Shown piece after piece: positions 4,689 through 47,350 of a stretch of 64,000 nucleotides of DNA (position 1 is its first letter; the number at the start of each line of letters is the position of its first letter). Below the pieces are notes generated by a model. That model saw only the letters and a program-made list of their open reading frames with translations, did no database searches and had not been told where the DNA came from. The translations under genes were made by a program, and so were the position numbers. This stretch comes from Puniceicoccus vermicola (GTDB lineage Bacteria; Verrucomicrobiota; Verrucomicrobiia; Opitutales; Puniceicoccaceae): the NCBI RefSeq assembly GCF_014230055.1, contig NZ_JACHVA010000052.1, positions 1 through 64,000 of the forward strand. The letters are read 5' to 3'.

Positions 4689-7600
4689 ATGATTCCTAGA
4701 TCTCGCTTAAATTGGGGGAGGGTGGTCCTTTCGGCCTTCCTGATCGTTTTGATGAACGCGATGGTCTCTGCGGCGACCTATTCGGAATGGGTGGCCGCGG
4801 AAGGATTAACGGGGGCGGATGGAGATCCAGATGCAAATCCGGATGGTGACTCCTTTGTCAATGCCTTGGAATACCTGTTCGTCCTCGATCCTGAGGTGGA
4901 GGATTCCGTCGCGGCAGCGGGAGTGGCCGTGGTGCGCAACGAATCGGGAGACCTGTTTGTCCGCTGGCCCCAGCGGGTTGCTCTGGATTCCGGGGGAGAA
5001 GTGATTCTGGAAGTGTCGGACTCACTGGCGGTGAATGATTGGACAGCGATGTCTACCTTTCCTGCCCCGGCAGCGGATCCGATGAATCCGGAACGCGAGT
5101 ATCTTTTCCAATACGTCAATCCCGAGTCTTCCGGGGAGTTTTACCGTCTGAAGGTGGATTTCCCCTTTGCGCCGGATCTAGAGGAGACGGTTCTGGTGGG
5201 ATCGTCGGTCGGGGCGGAGTGGGACTCGATGGGAGAGGTCGGTGACGTCTATGTGCGTCAAGTGGAGCCGCCGGTCAGCGCCTCGGACGATCGGCCGAAC
5301 ACCTCGAAATACCCCTCGGCGGTGGGGACGGAACGGGTCTCCTTTACCGAATGGCTCTCCGACGACTATGCAGACGACGGACGTAGCCCTCAGCGGCGCT
5401 CCTGGATGGGCTGGTTTCTCTGGGGGGACGGAGCACCTCCTCCCGGAAAGACGGCGGGTTGGCCTTTCAGCGGGGACTACGACGACAGCGACTGGGACTA
5501 TTTTGTCTATCAATTCCCGGCGGGCAACGATTCATCCACGACCGGTGACTGGAACGCCGTGCGGGTCGACCAGCAACCGCTCTACATGCAGCCGTTGCGC
5601 CTGAACTACAACTGGGCTCCGGGCCTCTTCGGCTATGAAAATCAGCCGATGCGGAATTTTCCGGACAACACCAAATTCTGGAAGGACAAGACCATCGTGA
5701 GAGGGATCAACCTCTCGCCGAATTATCCGTACTTCGTCCAATACGGAGACCGGATCGACGATACGGGCGTGCCGGCCTGGCCGGACGACTGGCGTGAGTC
5801 CTGGATCCGGATGAAAGTCCGGCCTCTGGAAACTCTGGTTCTGGTTCCTTCCAATTTGACGGCCGACGAACTCCTGACCGAGGGCGACTATAATAACGTG
5901 GGCTCGGTGGCCTCGCCGGACTACGAAGTTTTTCCGTATCCGGTGTGGAATACGAAATTGGCTCCGAGCGAGCAGACGCCCTACGCCATCCTGACGGATC
6001 AGATTGGCGATTGGCACGCGGACATCGTCTACGAAGGCACCCGTCCCGGAGCGGATGGTTACGAGAGTAACCGCTACCGCCGTTCGGATTTCTCGGCAGA
6101 TGGGCTCGGCAATTATTTGAAGCTGACCGTGGCGCAGGGCTCACCATTTGTCTGGGGGGAGACGAATAACAGCCGCTACATGATCTTCTACGATCTCATC
6201 CGCGAGAACACGATAGGCCGGATCGACAACAATACCGGCTCGGACGCCGAGTTTCTCTCCGACGGTCCGTATCCCGTGCCCGGCGTGTCAGGGGTGAGCT
6301 ACGTTCTGGCCTACGGCAACCAGACGAACCCCAATCAGTGGTTCCTGAACGTCGAGCCGGAGTTCTCCTCGCTGCCAGACCCTTCGAAGCCGGAGGAAAC
6401 CGTCCCGGGTGGATTCAATCCTCCGGGCGAGCAGAGCAACCACACTTATTTTGCGATCTATTTCCGAACGGATGCAGTCGAGGAGGTTTCCCTCGGGAGC
6501 GGGGAGAACGACAGTGACGGCACCGATGCCAACGGTAATCCATACTTCCAGCTGGAGTTCAAGGACACTGGCAAGAACTGGTTTGTCGTCGGCCAAGTGC
6601 CGGTGGCCCGCTACTACGACCCGGGTGTTTCCGAGGACGACCGATCGGTCCTCGACCAAGCGGCCAAGGATTGGGCTGACCAGATGGGTAAGTACGCTTT
6701 CAACTTTCCGACCGATACCTCCATCGACTACTCGGTGACGAATATGTATCGGGTGGATACCGACTTTAACGCGAGCTTTGCCAACCCCTACGTCGAGATC
6801 GGGGCGACGGATGCTGCGGCGATGACCGCCGATCCGGCCAAGACGGTCTGGACCCTGCGTCCCCACCACTATCAACCGCTGACTCTCGGGCCGGATCTCT
6901 CGACCGCGGCGAAAACGCCAGTTGTTTGGGAGCCACTGCAGACGACCGGGATCGATTTTCCCGCGGTGGCGTCTCCGCCGAACGCCAACAAGACGAACAC
7001 TTCGACCGAAGCACGCTGGGGATATTGGCATCCACAGGGGAACCTGAAGCCGGTGATCGCGGGTAACTTTTCGATCGCCTATCCATTTCAGAATTTTCTC
7101 CCGGTGCTGCCGCCGCCGAATTGGGAGAAGAACTACGAACAGACCGGAATTCAGGTCGTTCGGATCACGAATGTCGGTACGGGTTATGAGCGGATCACCG
7201 GAAAGCCCCAGGCGACGCTTACTGTCACGGATCCGGGCTCGACAGGATCCGGCGCGACTTTCGATGTGAAGCTCGAGCCGAATACGGGTCGGATTCTGCA
7301 GGTCGATGTGGTCTCGCCCGGTTCGGGCTATCCCGATGGAAACCCTCCGCCCGCGGACAAGGTGCAGTTCACCATCGATCCGCCACAGTCGACCGGTGGC
7401 GTGCAAGCCGAAGGGCGGGTGCAGATCGGAGGCGGGAAAGTTCTCGCAGTCTTCCTCAACGAAAAGGGTTCCGGCTATCGGTCGACCGTGGAGATCAGTC
7501 AAACCGGCAACGAGTCGGTGGATCCTCCGATCGTTGTCCCCAACTTTGACCCGAATACCGGGCAGATGGTTCCGGGGCTGGCCAAAGTGATTTCCGGAGG

Positions 7601-10600
7601 CTCAGGTTTTAATTTTGCTGAACCGATCCAGGCGAAGGTGATTGGCACAGGTTCAGGAGCGACGGTTGAAGTTGCCGAGCCGGGACAGGTCTTTGCCGTA
7701 GTTGACAGTTTGATCGCCGGATTCAACGGCAATGGGATCTACCCGAGCTCGGGGAATCTGACGGCGGACGCCGCGAATATCGAAGTCAACATCGTTCCGG
7801 CCACCGAAGGAGGGAGCACTCCGGATGCTGAGGTGATTCTGACGGCGGTTCCTACTTTCTTCAATGCGGTCGTGGAGAATCCGGGTTCGGGATACGACTC
7901 GGCCCCGACCGGAAGTATTACCGACGACGAGGGTAAGACCTTTGAGTTTACGACGGAGATTAACGGTGGACAAGTGATCAAGGTGAACCGTGGGCCCTCT
8001 CAGCCCAATCCGGTGCTGACCACTCCGAAGGCGGTTACTTTTACCGGGGGCAATCCGGATACTGCGGCGGCGGCCACTGCCTATCCGGGAGCCACGATCA
8101 CCGGGGTGCGTTTGACGGGCCCGGCTGTCGGAGGATATACGAGCGATTCCGAAGTCACCTTTTCCGGAGGCGCGGTCGGCCCGGGTTCGGGGAGCGGAAC
8201 GTTTGAGCCGCCGGTCTTCGACTTTTCGGTTTCCGCCGGGAAATTGGTCCTAAACGGTTTCGATAGCGGCCAAAACGGTGCGGGTTTCTGGGGCCCGGCG
8301 CGGTTCCGTGTCAAAGGCGGAAAAGGGTTCCGGGCTGCTGCCGAGGTTTTTGTCAACGAAGCCGGAGTGATCGAAAACGTCCGGGTTCTGCGCCAGGGAT
8401 CGAACTACCCGAGCGATGTGGATGTTTACCTGACCCAGGGCGGAGGAGCCTCCGGAAGCGGGGCGACTTTTGATGTGACCGTGACGGATGGGAAGATCAC
8501 CGGAGTCGAAGTCACGAACGGGGGAACCGGCTACAATACGCAGGGGAACACCATCCAGTTCATGGCTGTGGGCGGTGGGGACCCGGTCAACCAACCAGCC
8601 AAAGGGGCATGGGCGGAGATCACGGCGGATCCGGATGGCAGTGGCGGATTGACCAATGCCACGATTGTCAATGATCCGCAGCAGGGTGGCTATCTGGATA
8701 GCGCCGATATTGTCCCCACGGTCGATTCACCACCTCTGGTCGTTGAGTATTTCGACGTGCCGAATCGACAGATGATTTCGCCCAATCATGCGCAGGGATA
8801 CATCACCCGGATTGTCCCCGGAACGATTAACGTGGAGCAGGTCATCTACGACAGTTTAATCACCGAATTCACCAGTCTGGGCTCGGCAAACCTGAAGCCC
8901 TTTGGCGGTGGTTTTGGCGGTGCGAGTGCGCCCGACGGCTACGGACTGGGAAATCAACTTTCGGCGACTTCGAAGTTTATTGGGACGCTCTTTCAGTTGC
9001 GGAGTCAGGTGGCGAGCGAGGGGCAGGATTTGCCCAATCTCGCTCCCAGCTCCTTCGCCCGGGCCGCCGCCAACACCTTGGCGGATTCCTACGAGCTGCC
9101 GATCTACCGGGATCACAACCCAGGATCGACCCTGACGGGCGCCCTCGAGACCTCGGTGCAGGCATTGCAGCGAACCCTCTCCTTGCTGCATTCCGATCCC
9201 GCGTATTCGAACAATCCGCCGAGCGATAGCACGACGGCCTGGAAGCTCGAATACTACACCGGATATGATTCGGGGGCGGGGCGGATGCTGATCAACCCGA
9301 CTGCCTCACTGCCGGCGCAGGGAATCGTCAGCCGGACGGATTCCCCGCCGGAGATTTCCTCGGAGGAGAACGATCCCAAGGTGGGCTTGGCCAAATGGAA
9401 ACCGGGGATGCTCTGGAGTGGATTCGGAGTTTCCGACCAGTGGAACGACCAGCACTACTTCTTCGGCTATTATCTAGGAACGGCAGGCCTGGCCGCTCTC
9501 TTTGATGGGTCCTGGCTGGATTCGATTCCGGGAGAGCCCGAGAACCTCTGGTCTCACCCGGACCAAATGGGGCAGGCGATCGACCAATGGTATCTCTCCG
9601 TGGCCAATGACCCGGACAACGCCACGCTGACCTCGGCTTTGAATTCCGTGCCGGAGTTCTCCTTTCAGAAGTTCCCGTTCTTTGACCAATGGAGTGGCCA
9701 CGGGTGGGCGACCGGGATCCCTCCCGGACCCGCGGGATCGATCGAGAACGGTACCCTCGGAAGCAACTATGTCCCATGGTCGATCATGGTGACTTCGGGC
9801 ACGGGTGTTTTTGGTTACGGAGACGAGAACGAGAACTCGATCTGGGAAGGTCTCCAATCCTTCAGTGCAGCAATTCTCTGGGGCGCGGGCACCGATCGGA
9901 AGCCTCTGGTCGATACCGGGATGTATCTCCTCTCCACCGGCATGGCTGCCGGTGACCTGTATTTTCAGGATAAGAACTACAACCTTTCGGCGTCACCACA
10001 GAACGAATACTCCTGGGTGCCGGTCACGACGGTCGATTCGAGTGCCGTCGCCAACAATGGGGGGAATAATTCGATTCCGGCGGGCACGGACTACAACAGT
10101 GGGGCGGGCGAAGCTTTCTACACCGCACCGGAGTTCTTCGGTGGGGAAGCCGCGGCCGGGATGTCGATGGTCCGTAAATTTGGACCAACGCTGAACAACT
10201 TCTTTTATGCGTTTCCCACCGGCTCGAAATTCATTGAAGCCTATCCTCCGACAGCCTGGACGCTGGGCATATCCCGGAACACCGATTACATGAAGAAGTG
10301 GGCGGGAGCGATGATGCGGGAGGAGTGGACTGCCGCCCGCGATTCAGCCTTGTTCCAACCCGCGAACTGGTTGGCCATGGCCATGACCTCGGCCTTGTCG
10401 GGAGTCCCTTACAATCCGGGAGATGTTCCGTACCCGATGACTGGAACCACTCCGAACGCCGATGCGCCTGCACCCTACAGCGAACGACTCTGGTCGAGCT
10501 GGGTGACGATGGATGCGGCCGCCGGAGACGAAGCTTCGATGCAGCCGGCCTTCAAACCAGTGACCGTTCTTCATTTCCTGCAGGCCTTCGAGGAGTATGG

Positions 10601-10874
10601 GAACCCGGATTGGACCTACATCGGCAAATCCGTGAACTCCGGGGGAGCGGAAGTGGACGAGGTGGTGCTGATGGCCGCCTTCACCAAAGAAGTTCCGGAG
10701 GAGAACAAAGTGATTACGACCTTCGTCGCCTTCAATCCGGGATGGGAGGAACGTTACGCTCAGTTTGACCGCCTTGATTCGAATGGATCCGTGGGCAATG
10801 CAAACGTGAGCGGGCTCATCACCATTCCCGCCAAAAAGATGGCCATGAAGACGGTCGAATTCACGGGACTCTGA
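4689..10874 (+). CDS. Giant secreted GH81-like endo-beta-1,3-glucanase with inserted repeat region
   Basis: 2061 residues. A signal peptide ends about residue 28 (VSA|ATYS). An Asp-rich segment 'DGDPDANPDGDSFVNALEY' (near 42-60) is common in verrucomicrobial secreted enzymes. A beta-rich part (about 180-800) is followed by about 500 residues of degenerate 'GSGATFDV...GTGY' repeats (about 820-1340), then an alpha-helical part with GH81 hallmarks. These are WNDQHYFFGYYLG (D1587), WSGHGWATG (H1671) and ENENSIWEGLQSFSAAILWG (E1720). GH81 enzymes cleave beta-1,3-glucans such as laminarin, using an Asp in the HxHYGY block and Glu in an ES.SEA block. Here the second Glu is present (E1720), but the residue four before it is Asn1716, with Glu1715 next to it, so catalysis needs checking. 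The repeat block splits the usual GH81 N-terminal beta domain from the helical domain. Length is about two to three times that of ordinary GH81 proteins. Confidence 0.7.
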   Translation: MIPRSRLNWGRVVLSAFLIVLMNAMVSAATYSEWVAAEGLTGADGDPDANPDGDSFVNALEYLFVLDPEVEDSVAAAGVAVVRNESGDLFVRWPQRVALDSGGEVILEVSDSLAVNDWTAMSTFPAPAADPMNPEREYLFQYVNPESSGEFYRLKVDFPFAPDLEETVLVGSSVGAEWDSMGEVGDVYVRQVEPPVSASDDRPNTSKYPSAVGTERVSFTEWLSDDYADDGRSPQRRSWMGWFLWGDGAPPPGKTAGWPFSGDYDDSDWDYFVYQFPAGNDSSTTGDWNAVRVDQQPLYMQPLRLNYNWAPGLFGYENQPMRNFPDNTKFWKDKTIVRGINLSPNYPYFVQYGDRIDDTGVPAWPDDWRESWIRMKVRPLETLVLVPSNLTADELLTEGDYNNVGSVASPDYEVFPYPVWNTKLAPSEQTPYAILTDQIGDWHADIVYEGTRPGADGYESNRYRRSDFSADGLGNYLKLTVAQGSPFVWGETNNSRYMIFYDLIRENTIGRIDNNTGSDAEFLSDGPYPVPGVSGVSYVLAYGNQTNPNQWFLNVEPEFSSLPDPSKPEETVPGGFNPPGEQSNHTYFAIYFRTDAVEEVSLGSGENDSDGTDANGNPYFQLEFKDTGKNWFVVGQVPVARYYDPGVSEDDRSVLDQAAKDWADQMGKYAFNFPTDTSIDYSVTNMYRVDTDFNASFANPYVEIGATDAAAMTADPAKTVWTLRPHHYQPLTLGPDLSTAAKTPVVWEPLQTTGIDFPAVASPPNANKTNTSTEARWGYWHPQGNLKPVIAGNFSIAYPFQNFLPVLPPPNWEKNYEQTGIQVVRITNVGTGYERITGKPQATLTVTDPGSTGSGATFDVKLEPNTGRILQVDVVSPGSGYPDGNPPPADKVQFTIDPPQSTGGVQAEGRVQIGGGKVLAVFLNEKGSGYRSTVEISQTGNESVDPPIVVPNFDPNTGQMVPGLAKVISGGSGFNFAEPIQAKVIGTGSGATVEVAEPGQVFAVVDSLIAGFNGNGIYPSSGNLTADAANIEVNIVPATEGGSTPDAEVILTAVPTFFNAVVENPGSGYDSAPTGSITDDEGKTFEFTTEINGGQVIKVNRGPSQPNPVLTTPKAVTFTGGNPDTAAAATAYPGATITGVRLTGPAVGGYTSDSEVTFSGGAVGPGSGSGTFEPPVFDFSVSAGKLVLNGFDSGQNGAGFWGPARFRVKGGKGFRAAAEVFVNEAGVIENVRVLRQGSNYPSDVDVYLTQGGGASGSGATFDVTVTDGKITGVEVTNGGTGYNTQGNTIQFMAVGGGDPVNQPAKGAWAEITADPDGSGGLTNATIVNDPQQGGYLDSADIVPTVDSPPLVVEYFDVPNRQMISPNHAQGYITRIVPGTINVEQVIYDSLITEFTSLGSANLKPFGGGFGGASAPDGYGLGNQLSATSKFIGTLFQLRSQVASEGQDLPNLAPSSFARAAANTLADSYELPIYRDHNPGSTLTGALETSVQALQRTLSLLHSDPAYSNNPPSDSTTAWKLEYYTGYDSGAGRMLINPTASLPAQGIVSRTDSPPEISSEENDPKVGLAKWKPGMLWSGFGVSDQWNDQHYFFGYYLGTAGLAALFDGSWLDSIPGEPENLWSHPDQMGQAIDQWYLSVANDPDNATLTSALNSVPEFSFQKFPFFDQWSGHGWATGIPPGPAGSIENGTLGSNYVPWSIMVTSGTGVFGYGDENENSIWEGLQSFSAAILWGAGTDRKPLVDTGMYLLSTGMAAGDLYFQDKNYNLSASPQNEYSWVPVTTVDSSAVANNGGNNSIPAGTDYNSGAGEAFYTAPEFFGGEAAAGMSMVRKFGPTLNNFFYAFPTGSKFIEAYPPTAWTLGISRNTDYMKKWAGAMMREEWTAARDSALFQPANWLAMAMTSALSGVPYNPGDVPYPMTGTTPNADAPAPYSERLWSSWVTMDAAAGDEASMQPAFKPVTVLHFLQAFEEYGNPDWTYIGKSVNSGGAEVDEVVLMAAFTKEVPEENKVITTFVAFNPGWEERYAQFDRLDSNGSVGNANVSGLITIPAKKMAMKTVEFTGL

Positions 10875-15234: not shown

Positions 15235-15999
15235 TTAGCTGCGAGTCTCGACTTCGGCGCTGACTAGGACTACGGGGCCGGTTGGGGCTGGAGATCCGCC
15301 TGTGGGCTCAATGCTGACCGCAAACCGGAGGGAGCGTTCCTCTTGCGGGTTGCTCTCGAAATTCTCGAAGGCCATGAACTCCTGTCCGCTGGCGAAGGTT
15401 TCGCCGGGAATCGGGTCTTCCTGGGTATCGTCGAGAGCCCAGATTTGGTAGGCGTGATCGTGTGGCGCATCGGGAAGGGAGCCTGCTACGAGATAGGCCG
15501 TTTTTTTCTGCGAATCCCAAAGCGCCACGGTTTGAGAGCCCGCGAAGTTTTCTTCCTGAGCTTCGAAGGGAATCACACGGAGGTTGGAGAGGACGCTGGA
15601 AGACTCCTGAAGGGTGGCAATCTGGCGACGGAGACGGTTCAATTGCTCCTGCTCACCGCGAAGAGTAAAGAAGGCGTAGGCCGCGAGGCAAAGCGCGAAG
15701 CCCGCAGCAACGGCCCAAGCGGGACTGCTCCAAAACGAAACGATCTTCGAGTTCTCGTGGGGAGTCGTCTCTTTCTCTCCTGAACGCTTCGCGGCGGCCA
15801 ATATTTGATCGGGGATATGGGCGGGGGCTTCGGCCTCCGGGGTTGCGAGGGCCAACGTTTCATGGCCGCGGGCAAGTTCTTGAACATGGGCAGCGAGTTG
15901 CGGATCCCCTTCGAGCTTCTGTTCAAAGGCGCGTGATTGCGCTTCGTCTAAATCCCCGAGGATGTAGGCGAGAGCGGTATCTTCGAGTTCCTTATTCAT
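15235..15999 (-). CDS. RskA-like anti-sigma factor
   Basis: 254 residues. The N-terminal part (1-70) is an anti-sigma domain with 'DTALAYILGDLDEAQSRAFE'. A single membrane helix lies at about 93-113, followed by a short coiled coil and a C-terminal RskA-type domain containing 'AYLVAGSLPDAPHDHAYQIW' (family motif '...LP.l...YQvWl'). It should hold the ECF sigma factor at the inner membrane until a signal releases it, probably by regulated proteolysis. ATG 15999 has GGGAGG five bases upstream; longer frames are artefacts of the overlapping sigma gene. It overlaps the sigma gene by 8 bp, so translation is probably coupled. Confidence 0.85.
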   Translation of the reverse strand: MNKELEDTALAYILGDLDEAQSRAFEQKLEGDPQLAAHVQELARGHETLALATPEAEAPAHIPDQILAAAKRSGEKETTPHENSKIVSFWSSPAWAVAAGFALCLAAYAFFTLRGEQEQLNRLRRQIATLQESSSVLSNLRVIPFEAQEENFAGSQTVALWDSQKKTAYLVAGSLPDAPHDHAYQIWALDDTQEDPIPGETFASGQEFMAFENFESNPQEERSLRFAVSIEPTGGSPAPTGPVVLVSAEVETRS

Positions 16000-16597
16000 G
16001 GAGGCCTCCCTCTTTGTGCAGCGAATCCCGCAGGCTGAGCAAGCCCCTTCGAATACGGGCTTTGATGGTGCCGAGGGGCTGACCCAGCTTTTTTCCGATC
16101 TCCCGGTGCGGCAGCCCGGCGAAAAAGGCGAGGCGGATGGCCTCGCGGGAATCCGGAGCGAGACGCCCGAGACATTCATCCAAACGTTGGCGGTCTTCGT
16201 TTTTTACGGTTTCGTCGCGTGGAGCGGCTTCAGCGGAAGGCTCGACATCGCGGTCGGAGGCCTCGTCTTGAAAGCGCTCAAGATTCTCTTGGGTGCGTCC
16301 AGTCTTGCGGATGCGATCAATCCCCCGATTGCGGGCGATGGCAAAAATCCAGGAGATTCCCGATCCACGTGCCTGGGTAAAGCGATCGGCTTTCTCCCAT
16401 ACCTCGGTAAAGACTTCTTGCTGGACCTCGGTGGCATCCGATTCGTTGTGAAGCATGTTTCGGAGGTAGCCGTATACTCGCCCGCCCAAGAGAGAGTAGA
16501 GGGTCCGAAGGTCATCCTCGCTACCGGAGGCGATGCCTTGGAGACAGTCTTCCACCTTGCGGCGAAGAGCGTCGGTCTCCTGTTCAGAATTAGGCAT
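15992..16597 (-). CDS. ECF-type RNA polymerase sigma factor (SigK/ECF19-like)
   Basis: 201 residues. Region 2 contains 'LYSLLGGRVYGYLRNML' and 'DATEVQQEVFTEVWEKADRF'; 2.4 is 'GSGISWIFAIARNRGIDRIR'. Region 4 is a helix-turn-helix 'LPHREIGKKLGQPLGTIKAR'. It has no extra domain. The start is taken at ATG 16597, where homology begins; the frame extends 89 codons further but that part reads as divergent-promoter DNA. It sits upstream of an RskA-like gene (8-bp overlap) and divergent from a fasciclin gene. That matches the sigK-rskA plus mpt70/mpt83 pattern of mycobacteria, and the SigK-like assignment rests on this context. Confidence 0.88.
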   Translation of the reverse strand: MPNSEQETDALRRKVEDCLQGIASGSEDDLRTLYSLLGGRVYGYLRNMLHNESDATEVQQEVFTEVWEKADRFTQARGSGISWIFAIARNRGIDRIRKTGRTQENLERFQDEASDRDVEPSAEAAPRDETVKNEDRQRLDECLGRLAPDSREAIRLAFFAGLPHREIGKKLGQPLGTIKARIRRGLLSLRDSLHKEGGLHE

Positions 16598-16759
16598 GGA
16601 GGTACAGGAATGAGCACTCCTCTCGAAGGGCAATCCCAAACTGGCCAAGGTCGTGATGGGGGCGCTCGCCAAGGAAGAGAGGATCGGATTCTGCAAGAGG
16701 CTTGGGCTCACATAAGAGAATACGGATGCCGGTGGGTTTTGGACGCAGAAAACTTTTTT

Positions 16760-16787
16760 GCATCCAATCGGGGATTCTCGTCGTAAC
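16760..16787 (+). promoter_or_regulatory. Candidate ECF sigma-dependent promoter of the fasciclin gene
   Basis: GCATCC (16760-16765), a 16-bp spacer and CGTAAC (16782-16787), 58 bp before the fasciclin ATG. It resembles the CCATCC-N16/17-CG(A/T)A pattern reported for SigK-type promoters. It fits the idea that the divergent sigma factor controls this gene. Found by eye in a short region, so a chance match is possible. Confidence 0.35.
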
Positions 16788-16844
16788 CCCTTTTGAACGG
16801 ACGATTCGGTCCGGCAAAACCAGAAACCTAATCGAAAAGTAACT

Positions 16845-17459
16845 ATGAATACCAAAAAACTCATTCAATCTCTCGGAATTCTTCCTCTCTGTGCCGCTGC
16901 TTCGCTGTTGGCGGAAGAGCGTGAGGTGGGACCCTCTCATTTGTGGAATGGTCCATCCATGGGGGATGAAGAGACCATGACCGTCGAGGTCGGCGGAGCC
17001 CCAATGTATCCTTCGAAAACGATTGTCGAAAACGCCATGAACTCGGATGAGCACGAGACGTTGGTGGCGGCCGTGAAAGCCGCAGGTCTTGTCGACACGC
17101 TGCAGTCGGAAGGCCCATTTACCGTGTTTGCTCCAACGGATGCCGCCTTTGAGGCTCTGCCCGAGGGAACCGTCGAATCACTCCTGGAGCCGGAGGCCCA
17201 GGGCCAGCTGCAAACAATCCTGACCTACCACGTCATCCCCGGGAGCATGGACTCTGAGGCGATCCGCGAAGCTTTGCAGGCCAATGGGGGGTCCATGGAG
17301 GTGGAAACGGTCGCGGGTGAATCTTTGACCGTCTCGATGAATGGGGCCTCGAATCTCGTCCTCGAAGATGCCTCCGGGAATACGGCTCGTATTTTGACGT
17401 ATGATGTCTACCAGAGCAACGGTGTGATCCATGTCATCGACACGGTTCTTCTCCCGTAA
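16845..17459 (+). CDS. Secreted fasciclin (FAS1)-domain protein
   Basis: 204 residues. The signal peptide is 'MNTKKLIQSLGILPLCAAAS' with cleavage near residue 23. One FAS1 domain follows (about 57-204), with the H1 box 'GPFTVFAPTDAAFEALP', the YH motif 'ILTYHVIPG' and the H2 box 'NGVIHVIDTVLLP'. FAS1 domains mediate adhesion or cell-surface binding; the mycobacterial homologues MPT70 and MPT83 are SigK targets. Here the gene diverges from the sigma/anti-sigma pair, with a candidate ECF promoter in between and a strong terminator after the stop. Confidence 0.92.
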   Translation: MNTKKLIQSLGILPLCAAASLLAEEREVGPSHLWNGPSMGDEETMTVEVGGAPMYPSKTIVENAMNSDEHETLVAAVKAAGLVDTLQSEGPFTVFAPTDAAFEALPEGTVESLLEPEAQGQLQTILTYHVIPGSMDSEAIREALQANGGSMEVETVAGESLTVSMNGASNLVLEDASGNTARILTYDVYQSNGVIHVIDTVLLP

Positions 17460-25524: not shown

Positions 25525-25542
25525 ATACATCCATGAATGTAT
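25525..25542. promoter_or_regulatory. AcrR-type operator overlapping the adaptor start codon
   Basis: ATACATCCATGAATGTAT is a near-perfect 18-bp palindrome (16 of 18). It closely follows the known E. coli AcrR site core CATACATttgTGAATGTAT. It contains the ATG (25533) of the adaptor gene, so repressor binding could block both transcription and translation start. Confidence 0.65.
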
Positions 25543-26783
25543 CTAAAAAACATCTTTTGAAAATTTCTCTTTTCACGGCGACGAGTTCGCTTGCAGCAAT
25601 TCTGGCGGGATGCTCGCACGAATCCGGGGATTCGGCGCATGCCGGTGGTCCGGGAGCTGGGGGACCGCCCCGGGTCGACGTGGTGAAGGTCGCGCCGGAG
25701 ACGATTGAGTGGAATCAATCTTACCCGGGTCGGGTAGAAGGGTTGCGCCGCATTGTGATTCGGCCCCGAGTGGGCGGGTTGATTCTCAACCGCGAATTTG
25801 AGGAGGGGAACGTTGTCGAGAAGGATGAGGTGCTTTTTCAGATCGATCCGGATCCTTACGAGGTGACTCTCCGCCAAGCCCAGGCCCAGGCAGAGAGAGC
25901 CCAGGCGAATTTTCGTCAGGCTGAGCGTGAATGGACCCGGGCGAAAAAGCTTTTCGATACGGACGCCTTGAGTGAGCGTCAGCGGGATCAGAGCCAGTCG
26001 GATTACGAACTCGCCAAGGCGGATGTCGCCGTGGCCGATGCGGCGGTTGCCGAAGCTCAGTTGCAGCTCGATTATACGGAAGTTAAGAGTCCGGAGACCG
26101 GAGTCACCGGGCTGGAAGAATTTCCTGAGGGCAGTTTGGTCAATGAGGGCGAGCGCCTAACCGAGGTTACTCAAATCGATCCTTTCTACGTTCTCTTCTC
26201 CTTGCCGGAAGGGGATCCGGCCTTCGCGACCGTTCTCGATCAGCGAGACGACTCGGCGGACTATGAACTGAAGATGCGACTGCGAAGTGGAGCGGTCTTT
26301 TCCGAGGAGGGGAAGATCAACTTCGTGGCCAGCCGAATCGACGACCAGACCGGTACGGTCCGCGTCCGGGCTGAATTCTCGAACCCGGACCATCAGGTCC
26401 TTCCCGGCCAGTTTGTGCGGGTCTTTTTTGACGGTCTGAATCTAAAGGGCAGCTATGTCATTCCGGAAGATGCGGTCTTGACCACGGCGAACGGCAGCTT
26501 GGTTTACGTCGTTGGCGAAGGCAATGTGGTCACGCCTCGCCCGGTTCAACTGGGACCGGTGATCAAGAAGGGACAAGTCGTGCAAGGGGGGCTCTCCGAA
26601 GGAGACCGTGTCGTGACTTCTTCGCTGATTCGAATTCGTCCCGGGCAGGAAATCCAGCCGATCGAGAAGAAGATGGAAGGCGACTCCTCGGCGATGGAAA
26701 GTTCTTCTGCCGCGGATACGGAATCGTCGCAGGGAGGTGAAAATTCCGCACCTGAGAAACCACAAACAGAAGCGCAGGAATAA
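25533..26783 (+). CDS. RND efflux periplasmic adaptor lipoprotein (AcrA-like)
   Basis: 416 residues. Lipoprotein signal with lipobox LAGC (Cys27). Then the membrane-fusion fold: lipoyl half 'IVIRPRVGGLILNREFEEG', helical hairpin (about 115-165, rich in Ala/Gln/Glu), second lipoyl half 'YTEVKSPETGVTG', beta-barrel, and a membrane-proximal part with 'VLPGQFVRVFF'. It bridges the RND pump and the outer-membrane channel. A Ser/Glu-rich tail of about 40 residues ends the protein. First gene of a three-gene operon (33 bp to the pump). No clear ribosome site precedes ATG 25533, which lies inside the repressor palindrome. Confidence 0.93.
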   Translation: MNVSKKHLLKISLFTATSSLAAILAGCSHESGDSAHAGGPGAGGPPRVDVVKVAPETIEWNQSYPGRVEGLRRIVIRPRVGGLILNREFEEGNVVEKDEVLFQIDPDPYEVTLRQAQAQAERAQANFRQAEREWTRAKKLFDTDALSERQRDQSQSDYELAKADVAVADAAVAEAQLQLDYTEVKSPETGVTGLEEFPEGSLVNEGERLTEVTQIDPFYVLFSLPEGDPAFATVLDQRDDSADYELKMRLRSGAVFSEEGKINFVASRIDDQTGTVRVRAEFSNPDHQVLPGQFVRVFFDGLNLKGSYVIPEDAVLTTANGSLVYVVGEGNVVTPRPVQLGPVIKKGQVVQGGLSEGDRVVTSSLIRIRPGQEIQPIEKKMEGDSSAMESSSAADTESSQGGENSAPEKPQTEAQE

Positions 26784-26816
26784 CGTTCGCGTTAATCCAA
26801 CACCTTTTCCAAAAAC

Positions 26817-29800
26817 ATGTTCTCAAGATTTTTTATCGACCGTCCGGTATTCGCGACGGTGCTGTCCATCGTCATCATCCTGGCGGGTGTCGCCTCGATG
26901 GTCAGCCTTCCGATTTCGCAATACCCCGAGATCGTTCCTCCTGAAGTTTCCGTAAGTGCCCGCTATCCAGGGGCCAACGCAAACACCATCTCCGAGACCG
27001 TCGCTTCCCCGCTGGAACAGCAGATCAACGGGGTCGACGATATGATTTATATCCGATCGACTGCTTCGGACGATGGGTCTCTCGGGATTTCGGTTACTTT
27101 CGAAGTCGGCACGGATCCGGATCAGAACACGATCAACGTCAACAACCGTGTGCAGGCCGCCCTTTCGCAGTTGCCGGAGGAGGTTCAGCGTCAAGGGGTG
27201 ACGGTCCGCAAGCAATCATCGACGATTCTTCAGGTGGTGAATCTTTTTTCGCCGGACGGACAATATCAGCCGTTGTTTCTTTCCAACTACGCTTTGTTGA
27301 ACGTCCTCGACGAGCTCAAGCGGGTCAAGGGAGTGGGGGATGCGTCACTCTTCGGTCAGCTCAATTATTCGATGCGTGTCTGGCTCCGGCCCGACAAGCT
27401 CGCGGAGTATGATATGACTCCCGTCGATGTCTCGACCGCGATTCGTGAGCAGAATTCTCAATTCGCCGCGGGTAAATTTGGAGCCGAGCCATCCTCTTCG
27501 AATCCAGCTTTTACCTATACGGTCACGACTCCGGGACGTCTGGTCGACAAGAGTGAATTTGAGGATATCATTCTCCGCTCGGACGATACGGGGGGAATTC
27601 TCCGGTTGGGAGACGTGGCTCGCATTGAGCTCGGATCCCAGGCCTATTCGCAAGAGTCTTCGCTGAACGGTCAGCCCGCTGTGGCCATGGGGATTTATCT
27701 CCAACCGGGAGCGAATGCGTTGTCGACCGCCGAGGCGGTTCGCAATCGCTTGGAAGAGCTTTCGAAGACCTTCCCGACCGGGGTGGAGTTTGCGATACCA
27801 TTCGACACGACCCGTTTTGTTGATGTCGCGGTCGAAGGGGTGATCCATACTTTTGTCGAGGCCTGTCTGCTCGTGATCTTGGTGGTCTTTATCTTTCTGC
27901 AGAGCTGGAGGGCGACTCTCATTCCTCTGTTGGCCGTACCGATTTCGATTATTGGGACCTTTGCCGGAATGTCGGCGCTCGGGTTCTCCATTAACCTTTT
28001 GACGCTCTTCGGGCTCATTCTCGCCATCGGGATTGTGGTCGATGACGCGATTATCGTCTTGGAGAATGTGGAGCGTATCATGCGGACGGAGAAGAAGTCT
28101 CCGAGGGATGCTGCAATTGCGGCGATGAAAGAGGTCACGGGCCCGGTCATCGCAATTGTCCTCGTGCTTTGTGCGGTCTTCGTGCCAGTCGCCTTCATCG
28201 GAGGCTTGGCTGGTGAGATGTATCGACAGTTTGCGATTACGATTGCTATCTCGGTGATCATTTCCGGTTTCGTGGCGTTGACGCTGACTCCGGTGCTTTC
28301 GGCACTTTTCCTCAAGGAAGACCACTCGGAGCCGAAGGGGCCGTTCCGCCTCTTTAATCGTGGATTTGACTGGATCACCGATCGCTATGTCAGCGGCGTA
28401 ACCTTCTTCCTGAAGCACTGGATCCTCGGGCTTTCCTCGATTCTGATTTTCCTCGGTGCAGCCATGTACCTTTGGCAGAAAGTGCCTTCGTCACTCGTCC
28501 CCGAGGAGGACCAGGGATATGTTATTGCCTTCCAATACCTGATGCCGGGGACGGCCTTGAATCGGACGTTGGATGTTTCTGGCCCATTTACCGAAGCGGT
28601 CATGGAGAATCCTGCGGTGGAAGATATCATCACGATCACCGGTTTGGATTTGGCCACACGTGCTGGCCGGACCAATGCGGCTGTCTCGTTTATCCCTCTC
28701 AAGGATTGGGATGAGCGTAAGGCTGAAAGCTTGCAGGCTGCGAATGTCGCGAATCAGTTGACGGGTGTCGGTATGGGAGGATTCCCCGATGCATTGATCT
28801 TTGTTGTGAACGCTCCTCCCATTACTGGTCTGAGCAGCACGGGCGGTTTCGAAGGATATATTCAGAATCGTGTCGGCGCCTCGCCGGAGGAAATGGCGGG
28901 AGTTTTGAATGAGTTCATTGCCGCCGCATCCGAGCGGGAGGAACTGTCGGGAATGCGTTCAGCCTTCAACGCTTCGGTGCCTCAGTATCAAGTGACCGTG
29001 GACCGCGAAAAGGCGCGTTCGATGGGAGTGAAGATCAATGACATCTTCACCACGATGCAAAGCACTTTTGGGTCATTATATGTAAACGACTTCACTCTAT
29101 ATGGTAGAAGTTACCAAGTGACGATTCAGGCCGAAGGAGATTTCCGCGAAAGTCCTGAGGATCTCCGCAATGTATTTGTCCGTTCGGCGAACGGGCGGAT
29201 GGTGCCTCTCTACAGTCTGCTCAGTTTTGAGAAGACGGTGGGGCCAGACGTGATCGAGCGATTCAATCTCTTCCCGGCTGGCAAGATCCAGGGGGCTCCG
29301 GCACCCGGCTATAGTAGTGGTCAGGCCCTGGAGGCGATGGAAGAACTCGCGGCAGAAGTTCTGCCTGAGGGATACACTCTGGCCTGGACGGGTCAGGCCT
29401 ATCAGGAACGGGCTTCGGCCAACACGTCGACCTACGCTTTTGCCTTCGGGATTGTCATGATCTTTCTGATTCTCGCGGCGCAATACGAACAATGGTCATT
29501 GCCGTTTGCGGTGATCACTGCAGTTCCTTATGCGATTTTTGGCGCGATCGCTCTAGTATTTATTCGCGGGCTGGAGATCGATATCTACTTCCAGATCAGT
29601 CTGCTGGTCCTCACCGGTCTCGCTGCGAAGAACGCGATTTTGATCGTCGAGTTCGCGGTGATGAAGCGCAAGGAGGGGATGAGCCGTCGGGATGCCGCGA
29701 TTGAGGGCGCCAAGCTTCGTTTCCGGCCGATCGTCATGACCTCGCTCGCCTTTATCCTTGGGGTGGTGCCACTGGCAGTGAGCTCAGGGGCCGGTGCGGC

Positions 29801-29936
29801 AAGCCGCCACTCCATCGGAACTGGAGTCATCGGAGGAATGTTGGCAGCGACCTTCATCTCCATCCTTTTCGTTCCCTTATTCTATCGGTTGATTGACCGA
29901 GCCGCGGATCACGAGAAGGTTATAGGAGAAAAATGA
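26817..29936 (+). CDS. RND multidrug efflux pump (AcrB/HAE1-like)
   Basis: 1039 residues, usual length for HAE1 pumps. The N-terminus '[20 protein letters not shown]' is typical; twelve membrane helices and two large periplasmic loops are visible. The proton-relay Asp pair is in '[18 protein letters not shown]' (TM4), with the family motif '[14 protein letters not shown]' in TM10-11. It exports hydrophobic drugs or lipids using proton flow. It sits between the adaptor and the channel genes; its stop overlaps the start of the channel gene (ATGA). Confidence 0.96.
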
Positions 29937-31420
29937 GAGGGAAATCTATGAAAGGAATTTTGAGTCTCGGAGCCGCGTCGGCGTTGTGGGTAATCACAGG
30001 TTGTTCGCTCGCTCCCGATTATGAGCGCCCAGAGGATGACTTTCCGTCTGAGCTTGGCTTGGCGGGAACGCTGAAGGACGGCGACAACGAAGATTCGCTC
30101 GATCAATGGTGGGAGGCCTTTGATGATCCGACTCTAAACGAGTGGGTCGCCAAAACCCTCGAAGCCAATGGGGATCTCGGCGAGGCCGCGGCCCGCATTC
30201 GTCAGGCTCGAGCTCTCTACGGATTGGAAGCCGCGCAGCTCTGGCCGAATATCGACTTTGAGGGCACGGCCGCTCGGACGGAAGCCCCCGATTACCAAGT
30301 GTCTCCGGGGCAGGACAACCCCAGTAACCAGTTTGGTTTATCGGGACTCCTGAACTACGAGGTGGATCTCTTCAACAAGCTGGGTGATGCAAAAGATGCA
30401 GCTCGTGAGGATCTTCTCTCCACCTCCTATGCCTTCTTCACTCTCCGGAACTCGTTGATTTCGGAAACGGTTTCAGCTTACTACGGACTTCAGTCCTCGG
30501 TGAACCAGCTGGCCTTGGCGCAGGAGACGATCCAAACCCGCGAGGAGGCTGTTGGTTTTCAGCAGAAGCGTTTTGATGCCGGATTCTCGACAGAGTTGGA
30601 GTTGCAACAGTCGAAGGCTGAACTGGCGGATGCGAAGGTGAGGGTCCCTCAGTTTCAGGAAGCCATCCTGACTTATCAGACCTCGCTCTTGATTCTTTCC
30701 GGTGCCGATCCCTCGGCTTTCTGGAACCGGGATGTCTTTTCCGACGAGCCCAAGGAGCTGCCCGAGGTGCCAGAAGTGGCAGTAGACTTGATCCCTTCCT
30801 CGGTTCTGGAACGGCGCCCAGACATTCTCTCGGCAGAAGCGGCCTTGCGTTCGACCTATGAGAACATCGGAGTCGCCAAGGCTCAGCGTTGGCCAAGCCT
30901 TTCCTTGGGCGCTCTTTTGGGCACATCGGCGGCGCAGTTCGACAATCTTTTCACCTCGCCCTCCCAGACTTGGAACATTGGGGCTAACGTGACCGGACCC
31001 ATTATTGATTTTGGTCGTAACAAGAATCGGGTCCTGGCGGCAGAGGCTCGTCAAGAAGAGGCCTTTTGGATCTACAAGAATACGGTGCGCGAGGCTTTCA
31101 GCGAAGTGAATGAATCGATTCTAACTCTTCGCTATCGTGAGGAGCTGGTTGCGGCCCGGGTGAATCAGGAGAAGGCTTCGAGCCGCCTCTTGGAGTTGGC
31201 CAAGGAGCAGTATGATGAGGGTTTCTCGGAGTATATTGATTACTTGGATGCCGAGCGTCAGTCGTTCGAGGCGGAATTAACTCTCGAAGAATCCCGGTTT
31301 CGTCGCCTGAATGCGGCCGTCAATCTGTTCAAGGCTCTTGGTGGAGGCTGGGAAGGCCAGTTGGACGAGTCGGCAATGGAGCCTTTTGATCCGCAGAACG
31401 GAGAGGAAGTCGAAGAGTAA
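29933..31420 (+). CDS. RND efflux outer-membrane channel lipoprotein (OprM/NodT-like)
   Basis: 495 residues. Lipoprotein signal with '[14 protein letters not shown]' (lipobox ITGC). Two OEP repeats of long helices and beta strands follow; '[20 protein letters not shown]' is the typical OprM/NodT motif. It forms the trimeric exit duct of the pump. ATG 29933 has AGGAG five bases upstream and overlaps the pump stop as ATGA; ATG 29948 (GAGGG upstream) is a second possible start. Last gene of the operon; a hairpin 67 bp downstream can end transcription from both sides. Confidence 0.93.
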
Positions 31421-43989: not shown

Positions 43990-46212
43990 TTAATACTGAT
44001 AATTCGGGAAGTCGGTTTCCAAGAGCCCTTCACGGGGTTCAAAGAAGATCGTGGTGTAGATGCCTCCCCGGATTTCTTCGTAGCTCGGGGTCTTGTTGTA
44101 CCCGATTTCTGCCCCGAAGGCCCATTGCTCGGTGAGGAACATCATTCCTTTCAGATTGGAAATGAGGATACCGGTCGATTCGCTGGTGCCGCTGAAGGTG
44201 CGGTTGTCAGGAGCGAGCGGAAAGTAGTTGGAAGAGGCCTGTTTGTTCGACTGACCGCCGGCGCCGAGTTCCCCTTTGAAGAGGTAGTCTTTCCCTTCCT
44301 CCGTCATGAACTGCAGATTGATCAATCCTTGAGCCAGGTATTCGGGACTGAAGTAACCCCCGTGACCGTAGGTGAAGAAGTTTTGGTTATTGTTAAAGCT
44401 GTAGAAGGTGATGATGGGGCCGAAGTTCACATAGTGGAAATCATCAGGCTTGAAGGTCCGGGTCAGGCCGAGGTCGATTCGGATCTTTTCGTTATCGGCT
44501 ACATTCTGACCGCTCAACTTGGCGATTTCCATCGATCCGTAGAAGTTCAGGGTTTCCTTGAACGAGTGGAAGACGGAGAGGTGAAGGCCGGTTTCAAGGA
44601 CGCGCCCCCAGACCAGTGAGGAGTAGGGGTCTTTCATCCCGGTGTAACTCAGGAGCGACTCTTTGACGGAGCGGCGGTAGATTTCCAGGTCCCATGAACC
44701 GGAGTCGTAGAGGGTTTGGAATCCGACGCGCCCGGTGAAATCAGAATCGGCTGCTCCTCCCAATGGAGTCATCCCGATTTCGATGTAGGGCGAGATCCAA
44801 TCCTCGCGGTAGTAGCCGATCGTCGGCTCGATCATTCCATTGTAGGAGGTGTTCGGGGTAATGACGTAACCCGGATTCGGAGTGGTGGGATACAATCCAA
44901 TCGTGGCGAAGTTGGGAAGCTCGCCTGCATCCAGATTAACCAATCCGATGCTGACGTCGAAGCGGTTGACTGCGTCGGAAAAAATGGTTCCTGAAACTTT
45001 CGGACCGTAGGCAGCATTTAGCTCGCTCAAGCCGGGATCGCCGTCTCGGGCGACAAATTCGACAGAAAGTTCCGCTTTGGGGGCGTTGATGTTTTGGGTC
45101 AGCGGCATACTTTCGGCCTCGCCGCGAGGAGCCAGCTGGCTCGCCTTGAGATAGAGGCGGCGATCATAGTAGCGCTCGCTGGTGTAGAGAGCGTAAATGT
45201 CGCCGAGGGGGCCGCCATATTCATTGACGAGTTTCTGGATGCGGTCCCAGTTCCCTTCTCGCGACAGTGAGGCGTAGAGGCCTACAGCGGCAACTTGGTC
45301 GCGGTCCTGCCGGTAAAGGTCGAGGAAGAGGTTGGCGGACTTGTCGAGCTGATTGAGGTGGTAGTAGCTCCAAGCTTCGATCACGCGCTCACCCCGGGTC
45401 AGCGGGCGATTCTGGGAAATGCGTTTCAGATCGGTGAGGGTATCCTCATAGCGCTCCGCCTTGAAGGAGGAGATGGCGCGGGTCATGTAGATGTCTCCGA
45501 GGATGTCCTGCATTCCCGGGTAGGCCGTCAATTTCCAGCGGGCGACGGCTTCGGCCTGCTGAAGGTATCCTTCATTGTAGAGGGAGAGGGCGAGCCCGTA
45601 GGCCGCTTCGTTGAAATTCTCGTCCCAGCGGAGGGATTGTTCAAACCACTCGATGGCCTTGGGGTAGTTCTCGTCCTTGAAGTAGGACCACCCGAGGGCA
45701 CCAGCCATTCCGACGTCCTGATTTTCGAGGACCCAAGGTTCGAGTTCAGCATATTGCTTGTCGGCGAGGAGTTGCCCGGGATCAAAACCGCTCTCGGCGA
45801 CTTGTTCTTCCTGTGCGAACCCTGTCTGGGTGTCGCCAAAAACGATGGTCGGGCTGTTGGGAGACTCAATTGCCTCGGCAACTGGCTGTGGGGCGGGGAG
45901 GAGAACCTGGGTGGGGATTCCCTGTTGGCCGACGGCTTGACTCCGTGGGCGCTGAGTAGGGACAACCGTGCTCGGGGGGCCGGATTGGGCAGGGCTGGTT
46001 TCGGGGAGAAAGTAGGAGGGATCCTGATTGGCCGTGGGGGCCGAACCTCGGGATTGGGGGGTAGGATTGGCTGGGCTCGGCGCAAGAATCTCTTCCATTG
46101 ATGTAGGGAAGAGGCCTTGTTCCTCATAGTTTTGAGCGCCTAGGGTTTGTCCGAGAAGGATTGCCGAGGTCATCCAGGCGATTCGCCAGCGAGATGAGTT
46201 AACAAGGTTCAT
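43990..46212 (-). CDS. bcsC: Cellulose export protein BcsC-like (TPR plus outer-membrane barrel)
   Basis: 740 residues, last gene of the operon. Signal peptide to about 26, then a Pro/Ser/Gln-rich linker (about 30-135), five or six TPR repeats (about 145-365), and the BCSC_C outer-membrane barrel (about 390-740) with 'YGHGGYFSPEYLAQ', a BcsC landmark. E. coli BcsC has about 1157 residues and many more TPRs, so this is a short form with a nearly complete barrel. It should guide the glucan through periplasm and outer membrane. It starts 31 bp after bcsZ. Confidence 0.85.
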   Translation of the reverse strand: MNLVNSSRWRIAWMTSAILLGQTLGAQNYEEQGLFPTSMEEILAPSPANPTPQSRGSAPTANQDPSYFLPETSPAQSGPPSTVVPTQRPRSQAVGQQGIPTQVLLPAPQPVAEAIESPNSPTIVFGDTQTGFAQEEQVAESGFDPGQLLADKQYAELEPWVLENQDVGMAGALGWSYFKDENYPKAIEWFEQSLRWDENFNEAAYGLALSLYNEGYLQQAEAVARWKLTAYPGMQDILGDIYMTRAISSFKAERYEDTLTDLKRISQNRPLTRGERVIEAWSYYHLNQLDKSANLFLDLYRQDRDQVAAVGLYASLSREGNWDRIQKLVNEYGGPLGDIYALYTSERYYDRRLYLKASQLAPRGEAESMPLTQNINAPKAELSVEFVARDGDPGLSELNAAYGPKVSGTIFSDAVNRFDVSIGLVNLDAGELPNFATIGLYPTTPNPGYVITPNTSYNGMIEPTIGYYREDWISPYIEIGMTPLGGAADSDFTGRVGFQTLYDSGSWDLEIYRRSVKESLLSYTGMKDPYSSLVWGRVLETGLHLSVFHSFKETLNFYGSMEIAKLSGQNVADNEKIRIDLGLTRTFKPDDFHYVNFGPIITFYSFNNNQNFFTYGHGGYFSPEYLAQGLINLQFMTEEGKDYLFKGELGAGGQSNKQASSNYFPLAPDNRTFSGTSESTGILISNLKGMMFLTEQWAFGAEIGYNKTPSYEEIRGGIYTTIFFEPREGLLETDFPNYQY

Positions 46213-46243
46213 AGAATCAATGATGCGTTGGTTTACGAAAGCG

Positions 46244-47335
46244 TTATGGATGAGGCAATGAAGAATACTTTTTCGATTCTTGCTCTGCGATGTCGGAAAG
46301 GAGCCTCAGGCAGGCGGAATAATAGGAAGAGTAATTTTCGGAGGATCCAGAGGGCGCCGGGACGTTCTTTGGATCGATCAGATGGTAGACGGCGATCATG
46401 CCCGGAATCACGGTGTACTCGCCCGGTTCATTTGTGGCGAGGTTCACTTGATCTGGGAGGAGATAGATATTTGAGGTATGTTTAGCCCAGTTACGGAAGG
46501 GTTCGTAGAGCGCGGAATCATTTTCTCCTGCCCAGTCGAGGTAGAGGGGAATCCGGACTGCGTTGTAGCCGTAGACTGGAGTGAAATTCTCGGGGAGCCT
46601 GAGGGAGCCGTCTTTTGAGATAAAAAGCCAGTCGGGGGGGAGGTCCCATTTTCCGAATCGGGCTTTTGCAATGAGACGGGTTCCGGAAAGGTAGAGGCTG
46701 TCCCAAATGTAGGAGGGATCCATGCGCTTGACGTCGAGTAAGGCAGGAAAAACCCAGTAGCTGAGGTTAACGATGACCCCGTCGGACTTCTCGAATCCGG
46801 CTCCTCCAGGGAGAAGAAGGGGGCCGTAATTGCTGTCGACTACCATCGTTTGCCGGAGCGTCCGCACGATTTGCTTCGACTCTTCGAGTAGTCGCTCGTT
46901 TTGCCAAAGCTCGTTGGCGCGTAGGAGTGCCCAGGCGATGAGGAGATCTCCATCCGTAGCGTTGTTCTTATCGGTGGTGGGATTTGGCTTTTGCGCCGGA
47001 TCCCATTTCCAGGCGAAAAGGTTGTCGTCGCGAACTTGGAGATTCTTTTGTGTCCAGGACCAGATGATCGAAAAGGTGGCGAGATCTCGGTTTTTCACCG
47101 CAAGGAGCATCCCGTAACCCTGTCCCTCCGAATGGGAAATGTCTCCGTTTGCGGTGTCGATGACGCGCCCGTCGGAGGAAACGAAGTCCTTCTTGAAGGC
47201 GTTCCAGTCCTGCTTGCCTTGGGTGTTACGCGCCAAAGTAAATCCTTTGAAATTCGACTGAGCGTCGGCGAGGGAGGCGGTCGCGGTCAATAAGAACAGC
47301 GTCAGGATACTCGCGAAGGGGCGTTTGAAGTCCAT
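46244..47335 (-). CDS. bcsZ: Periplasmic endo-beta-1,4-glucanase GH8 (BcsZ)
   Basis: 363 residues. Signal peptide to about residue 25 (ADA|QSNF). GH8 domain: the catalytic acid is in 'GDISHSEGQGYGMLLAV' (Glu70), then 'NNATDGDLLIAWALL' (Asp128), both conserved in BcsZ; 'PVYGYNAVRIPLYLDW' closes the (alpha/alpha)6 fold. It trims or edits nascent cellulose in the periplasm and is needed for good export in other bacteria. Third gene of the operon, 15 bp after bcsB. Confidence 0.93.
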   Translation of the reverse strand: MDFKRPFASILTLFLLTATASLADAQSNFKGFTLARNTQGKQDWNAFKKDFVSSDGRVIDTANGDISHSEGQGYGMLLAVKNRDLATFSIIWSWTQKNLQVRDDNLFAWKWDPAQKPNPTTDKNNATDGDLLIAWALLRANELWQNERLLEESKQIVRTLRQTMVVDSNYGPLLLPGGAGFEKSDGVIVNLSYWVFPALLDVKRMDPSYIWDSLYLSGTRLIAKARFGKWDLPPDWLFISKDGSLRLPENFTPVYGYNAVRIPLYLDWAGENDSALYEPFRNWAKHTSNIYLLPDQVNLATNEPGEYTVIPGMIAVYHLIDPKNVPAPSGSSENYSSYYSACLRLLSDIAEQESKKYSSLPHP

Positions 47336-47350
47336 GAATCGATACGCTGG

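Follow-up and report, generated by a model that had tools for sequence, protein, structure and literature searches.

The analysed window, a stretch of 64,000 nucleotides from a Puniceicoccus vermicola contig, contains on its forward strand an intact open reading frame (4689-10874) that starts with ATG and codes for 2061 amino acids without interruption, at the interval given in the first-pass annotation. A frameshift or pseudogene was rejected, the reading frame being open in 13 loci and dN/dS being low. The encoded protein is a putatively secreted relative of the GH81 enzymes, which cleave beta-1,3-glucan, and is retained in a few Verrucomicrobiota. Its N terminus (residues 1-28; 4689-4772) is signal-peptide-like, with a basic start and a hydrophobic run (VVLSAFLIVLMNAMVSA) read from the translation, and is followed by a module with an acidic NPDGDSFVNALEY motif (residues 28-160; 4770-5168), tblastn matches covering residues about 22-160. 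The N half (residues 190-810; 5256-7118) represents an enlarged GH81 beta-sandwich part according to hhalign and fold comparison. The C half (residues 1387-2061; 8847-10871), assigned through PF17652, hhalign, PDB and fold comparisons, comprises the GH81 helical barrel and a terminal beta domain. Between the two halves, bounded by FLPVLPPP and YDSLITEF, lies an inserted GxGY repeat domain of 576 amino acids (residues 811-1386; 7119-8846).

By tblastn, some match to the 2061-residue protein was found in 25 of the 87 related genomes, mostly to the module at residues 28-160. This module recurs in many unrelated open reading frames of the order, which differ in length and in some cases exceed 3000 residues. 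Among the relatives, no neighbouring gene is conserved outside the genus and none points to glucan use; a sulfatase gene occurs nearby in L022 and L023 only, which is a weak signal. A complete bacterial cellulose operon was also annotated in the window (43990-51720, reverse strand), including BcsA with a PilZ domain, BcsB, GH8 (BcsZ) and BcsC; as a functional context for the GH81-like gene it was rejected, being more than 30 kb away. Other gene sets of the window are an ECF sigma factor with an RskA-type anti-sigma factor (15235-16864, reverse strand) and an RND efflux set made up of an HlyD-type fusion protein, an AcrB-type pump and an outer membrane factor (25533-31420, forward strand).

GH81 homology of both halves

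The likeness to GH81 noted at first pass was borne out for both halves by profile-profile and fold comparison. Against the canonical GH81 profile, hhalign returned an E-value of 2e-15 with the C half and one of 2e-10 with the N half (A3 vs A5), and no unrelated fold was seen. The C-half profile also retrieved the BhGH81 and CtLam81A structures from the PDB at E-values of 5e-9 to 1e-8, whereas a PDB search with the single sequence found no GH81, profiles alone reaching the family. The segment of residues 779-811 shares 48% identity with L042. PF17652, the model of the C-terminal GH81 barrel, is matched by all 13 members of the group, with a best E-value of 9e-13. For the protein studied here, the C half alone scores 28.6 bits against a cut-off of 25.6, whereas the full protein scores 25.5 bits, so that the clade is barely reached by automatic annotation. 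PF03639, the N-terminal GH81 model, was not matched by the N half in Pfam scans, and a search of the protein's own genome with it was uninformative, giving no match there or in the control genomes; homology of the N half to GH81 emerges only by profile-profile and fold comparison.

Structure prediction, a check proposed together with the first-pass claim, placed GH81 first for both halves. For the N-half model (residues 297-800), much of which is of low confidence, ten of ten GH81 structures ranked first with Z scores of 12.7-14.2, followed by the next match at 9.2. The top seven structural matches of the C-half model were likewise GH81 (Z 7.3-8.7), this model being of low confidence in the barrel: when residues 862-2061 were predicted, the repeats were good and most of the barrel had a pLDDT of 23-50. 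The GH81 endo-beta-1,3-glucanases CtLam81A (6fop), BhGH81 (5t4a), RmLam81A (4k35) and ScEng2 consist of a beta-sandwich, an (alpha/alpha)6 barrel and a small terminal beta domain, and these follow in the same order in the protein described here.

The inserted repeat domain and the clade that carries it

In true GH81 enzymes the counterparts of FLPVLPPP and YDSLITEF are adjacent, whereas here these motifs (residues 803-810 and 1387-1394) are 576 residues apart. Measured along the series LLPxLPxP, YDxAxM and DTYW, the distance from LP to DTYW is 613 residues compared with 39-44 in the true GH81 sequences measured. The continuity of the beta part and the barrel, a feature of GH81, is absent in this protein and, judged by these motifs, the insert (811-1386) falls exactly at the GH81 junction of the two parts. 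The first-pass annotation had described an N-terminal beta part separated from the helical domain by degenerate repeats at about 820-1340. The separation and the repeats hold, with slightly wider boundaries for the latter; the term degenerate does not, as the domain is conserved in all 13 members. The beta-sandwich and the barrel would probably pack as in GH81, with the GxGY domain nested at the linker.

The insert contains ten GxG/NY/F motifs compared with 1.2 expected, and the maximum in 5000 composition-preserving shuffles was seven. Its length varies from 560 to 715 amino acids in relatives, and its rate of evolution is only a little above that of the core (dN 0.13 vs 0.09). It was modelled as beta structure with mostly good confidence, and no second copy was found in its own genome. 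The insert resembles phage baseplate and virion families in sequence (E-value 1e-11) and has structural matches in BFVD. Virion proteins of T4-like phages and cyanophages (phrog_2885, phrog_460 and phrog_701) have the same GxGY beta repeats; there the repeats form part of the virion, whereas in the present case a glycosidase encloses them. These repeats (7119-8846) are common to a bacterial secreted enzyme and to cyanophage and T4-like virion proteins, and exchange may have taken place in either direction. In the present protein the repeats probably lie outside the core and would form a platform at the surface or for binding substrate.

Altogether we found 12 further distinct full-length homologues, with about 38-82% identity and the same layout. 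All of them, among them L028 from Cerasicoccus arenae, come from Verrucomicrobiota except L030, which lies on a contig labelled Elainella saxicola, a cyanobacterium, and may reflect transfer or contamination. This homologue is without the N-terminal module and has a C-terminal extension of more than 1000 residues. The split form is rare, as it occurs in only 6 of the 387 sampled genomes of the phylum Verrucomicrobiota. In a tree of the C half, its members part from 15 canonical GH81 proteins of the same phylum with support 100/100, on a branch whose length, about 4 changes per site, is rough given the divergent alignment. The split form is a sharply bounded sister clade of GH81 and not an ordinary member. 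Values of dN/dS are well below 0.1 in the N half, the insert and the C half (gene of the window vs L022, with synonymous sites near saturation), and purifying selection of this kind speaks for a functional protein. A literature search found no description of a split GH81 form with an altered catalytic block.

An altered catalytic block

Four acids have been reported as essential in ScEng2, namely D518, D588, E609 and E613 (PMC3627985). Three of these correspond by spacing and alignment to D1587, D1666 and E1720, which are invariant in all 13 members. D1587 (9447-9449), the putative general acid and catalytic Asp of NDxH, lies in NDQH where GH81 has NDHH or NDQH; D1666 and the equally invariant H1671 lie within FFDQWxGHGWA (9684-9701); E1720 is the second Glu of the GH81 motif ES.SE. 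In contrast, in the gap-free alignment the first Glu of this motif, the counterpart of E609, is not retained and is replaced by Asn1716 in 13 of 13, and the GH81-invariant Gln ahead of it is Glu1715, again in 13 of 13. The altered block (9828-9848) reads N1714-E1715-N1716-S1717-x-x-E1720 compared with N-Q-E-S-x-S-E in GH81. All of its named residues are invariant within the clade, while QES.SE is retained in all 20 canonical GH81 loci compared from the same phylum. The change from QE to EN preserves one acid and one amide. The first-pass annotation had placed D1587, H1671, E1715, N1716 and E1720 at these positions and had read the first Glu as Asn1716 with Glu1715 one residue earlier, and both observations extend to every relative.

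Further changes were found beyond those described at first pass. The motifs NDxH, FD-GH-WA-G and S--E are common to GH81 and this protein, as are the Asp and Tyr of DTYW, whose counterpart in the merged alignment is D1416-G-Y1418 (8934-8942). In contrast, the Trp and Lys of DTYWxGK are lost, a His of DHHFH is replaced by Phe1591, and the loop ahead of the catalytic block (9717-9827) is 24-30 residues longer, the stretch from D1666 to E1720 spanning 48-55 residues compared with 23-24 in true GH81. The canonical set has 43 invariant positions; in the clade, 19 of these are kept, 16 are variable and eight carry a different but likewise fixed residue, among them Phe1591 in place of His and the E-N pair in place of Q-E. 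This active-site pattern is fixed in 13 of 13 relatives, down to 39-44% identity.

The register of the block bears on its interpretation. With one gap, N1714 would match the Gln as an amide, and E1715, S1717 and E1720 would match Glu, Ser and Glu; Asn1716 would then be an insertion following the original catalytic Glu, now E1715 in a widened turn, and the protein would be an ordinary beta-1,3-glucanase. We regard this as rather improbable, as HMMER, hhalign and the MAFFT merge all align the block without a gap and other residues fixed in GH81 are changed too. Its functional outcome would be the same as that of a relocated base, and the two cannot be separated from the sequence.

Our preferred explanation, to which we give a probability of roughly one half, is that the protein is secreted and works as an active, stand-alone glycoside hydrolase of GH81 descent, with a relocated base and an altered substrate. 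Activity with a rearranged base is favoured because the acids are fixed and constrained, the new Glu stands beside the lost one, and the loop extension could reposition a Glu; three of the four ScEng2-essential acids and H1671 are kept. Hydrolysis would likely still be inverting, with D1587 donating the proton and a carboxylate of the rearranged N-E-N-S-x-x-E block activating water. The base would most likely be E1715, positioned by the longer preceding loop, with E1720 assisting or replacing it. The missing Trp and Lys of DTYWxGK, together with Phe1591 in place of His, suggest that the substrate differs from plain linear beta-1,3-glucan and is probably a related beta-glucan. On the other hand, by general geometry a Glu shifted back by one position in a helical block would face about 100 degrees away, which counts against a relocated base, as does the low confidence of the model in the active-site region. 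Gene context, with no conserved neighbour that hints at glucan use, lends the active reading no help either.

A further point against an active enzyme is that the Glu replaced by Asn is reported to be essential in ScEng2 and is the residue mutated in crystals, being Gln in BhGH81 (5t4c, 5upi) and Ala in CtLam81A E515A (6fop). As every member has Asn at the position that crystallographers mutate to leave substrate uncut, the protein might instead be a GH81 derivative that has lost catalysis and binds beta-glucan, either at the cell surface or in the surrounding medium, the repeats serving as a spacer or an additional surface for binding; the large repeat domain would fit such a binding or adhesive role. 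We consider this unlikely, since D1587, D1666, H1671 and E1720 are strictly kept and E1715 replaces an invariant Gln, and mere binding offers no clear reason to fix these residues. Of the two options raised at first pass, an active enzyme with changed spacing or a glucan-binding derivative, the conservation favours a working enzyme, although it does not amount to proof and the sequence does not decide between them.

The related inverting barrels GH65 and GH94 include phosphorylases that have no base. By analogy, the kept acid and altered base could point to a changed reaction, in which the sugar is transferred to an acceptor or phosphate instead of water for want of the water-activating Glu. 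A phosphate-dependent enzyme would fit poorly with the signal-like N terminus, and the new Glu adjoins the lost one; we give this explanation very little weight.

Returning to the relocated base, the clade carries a fixed change at the very Glu that is mutated to inactivate GH81 enzymes for crystallography, and so lets one ask in a natural setting whether the base of a glycosidase can shift along the polypeptide. In fold and ancestry the protein is GH81-like, and it is not classed as a standard member of the family since it departs from GH81 in the first catalytic Glu, the continuity of the two parts and the PF03639 match. We tentatively suggest, as a possibility short of an even chance, that the clade forms a glycoside hydrolase family of its own and a sister of GH81, marked by a one-residue shift of the catalytic carboxylate (Q-E to E-N), a loop extension, a nested beta-repeat domain and a different glucan. 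One genome (G069) holds both the split form and a canonical GH81 (L036), and the two therefore probably do different work.
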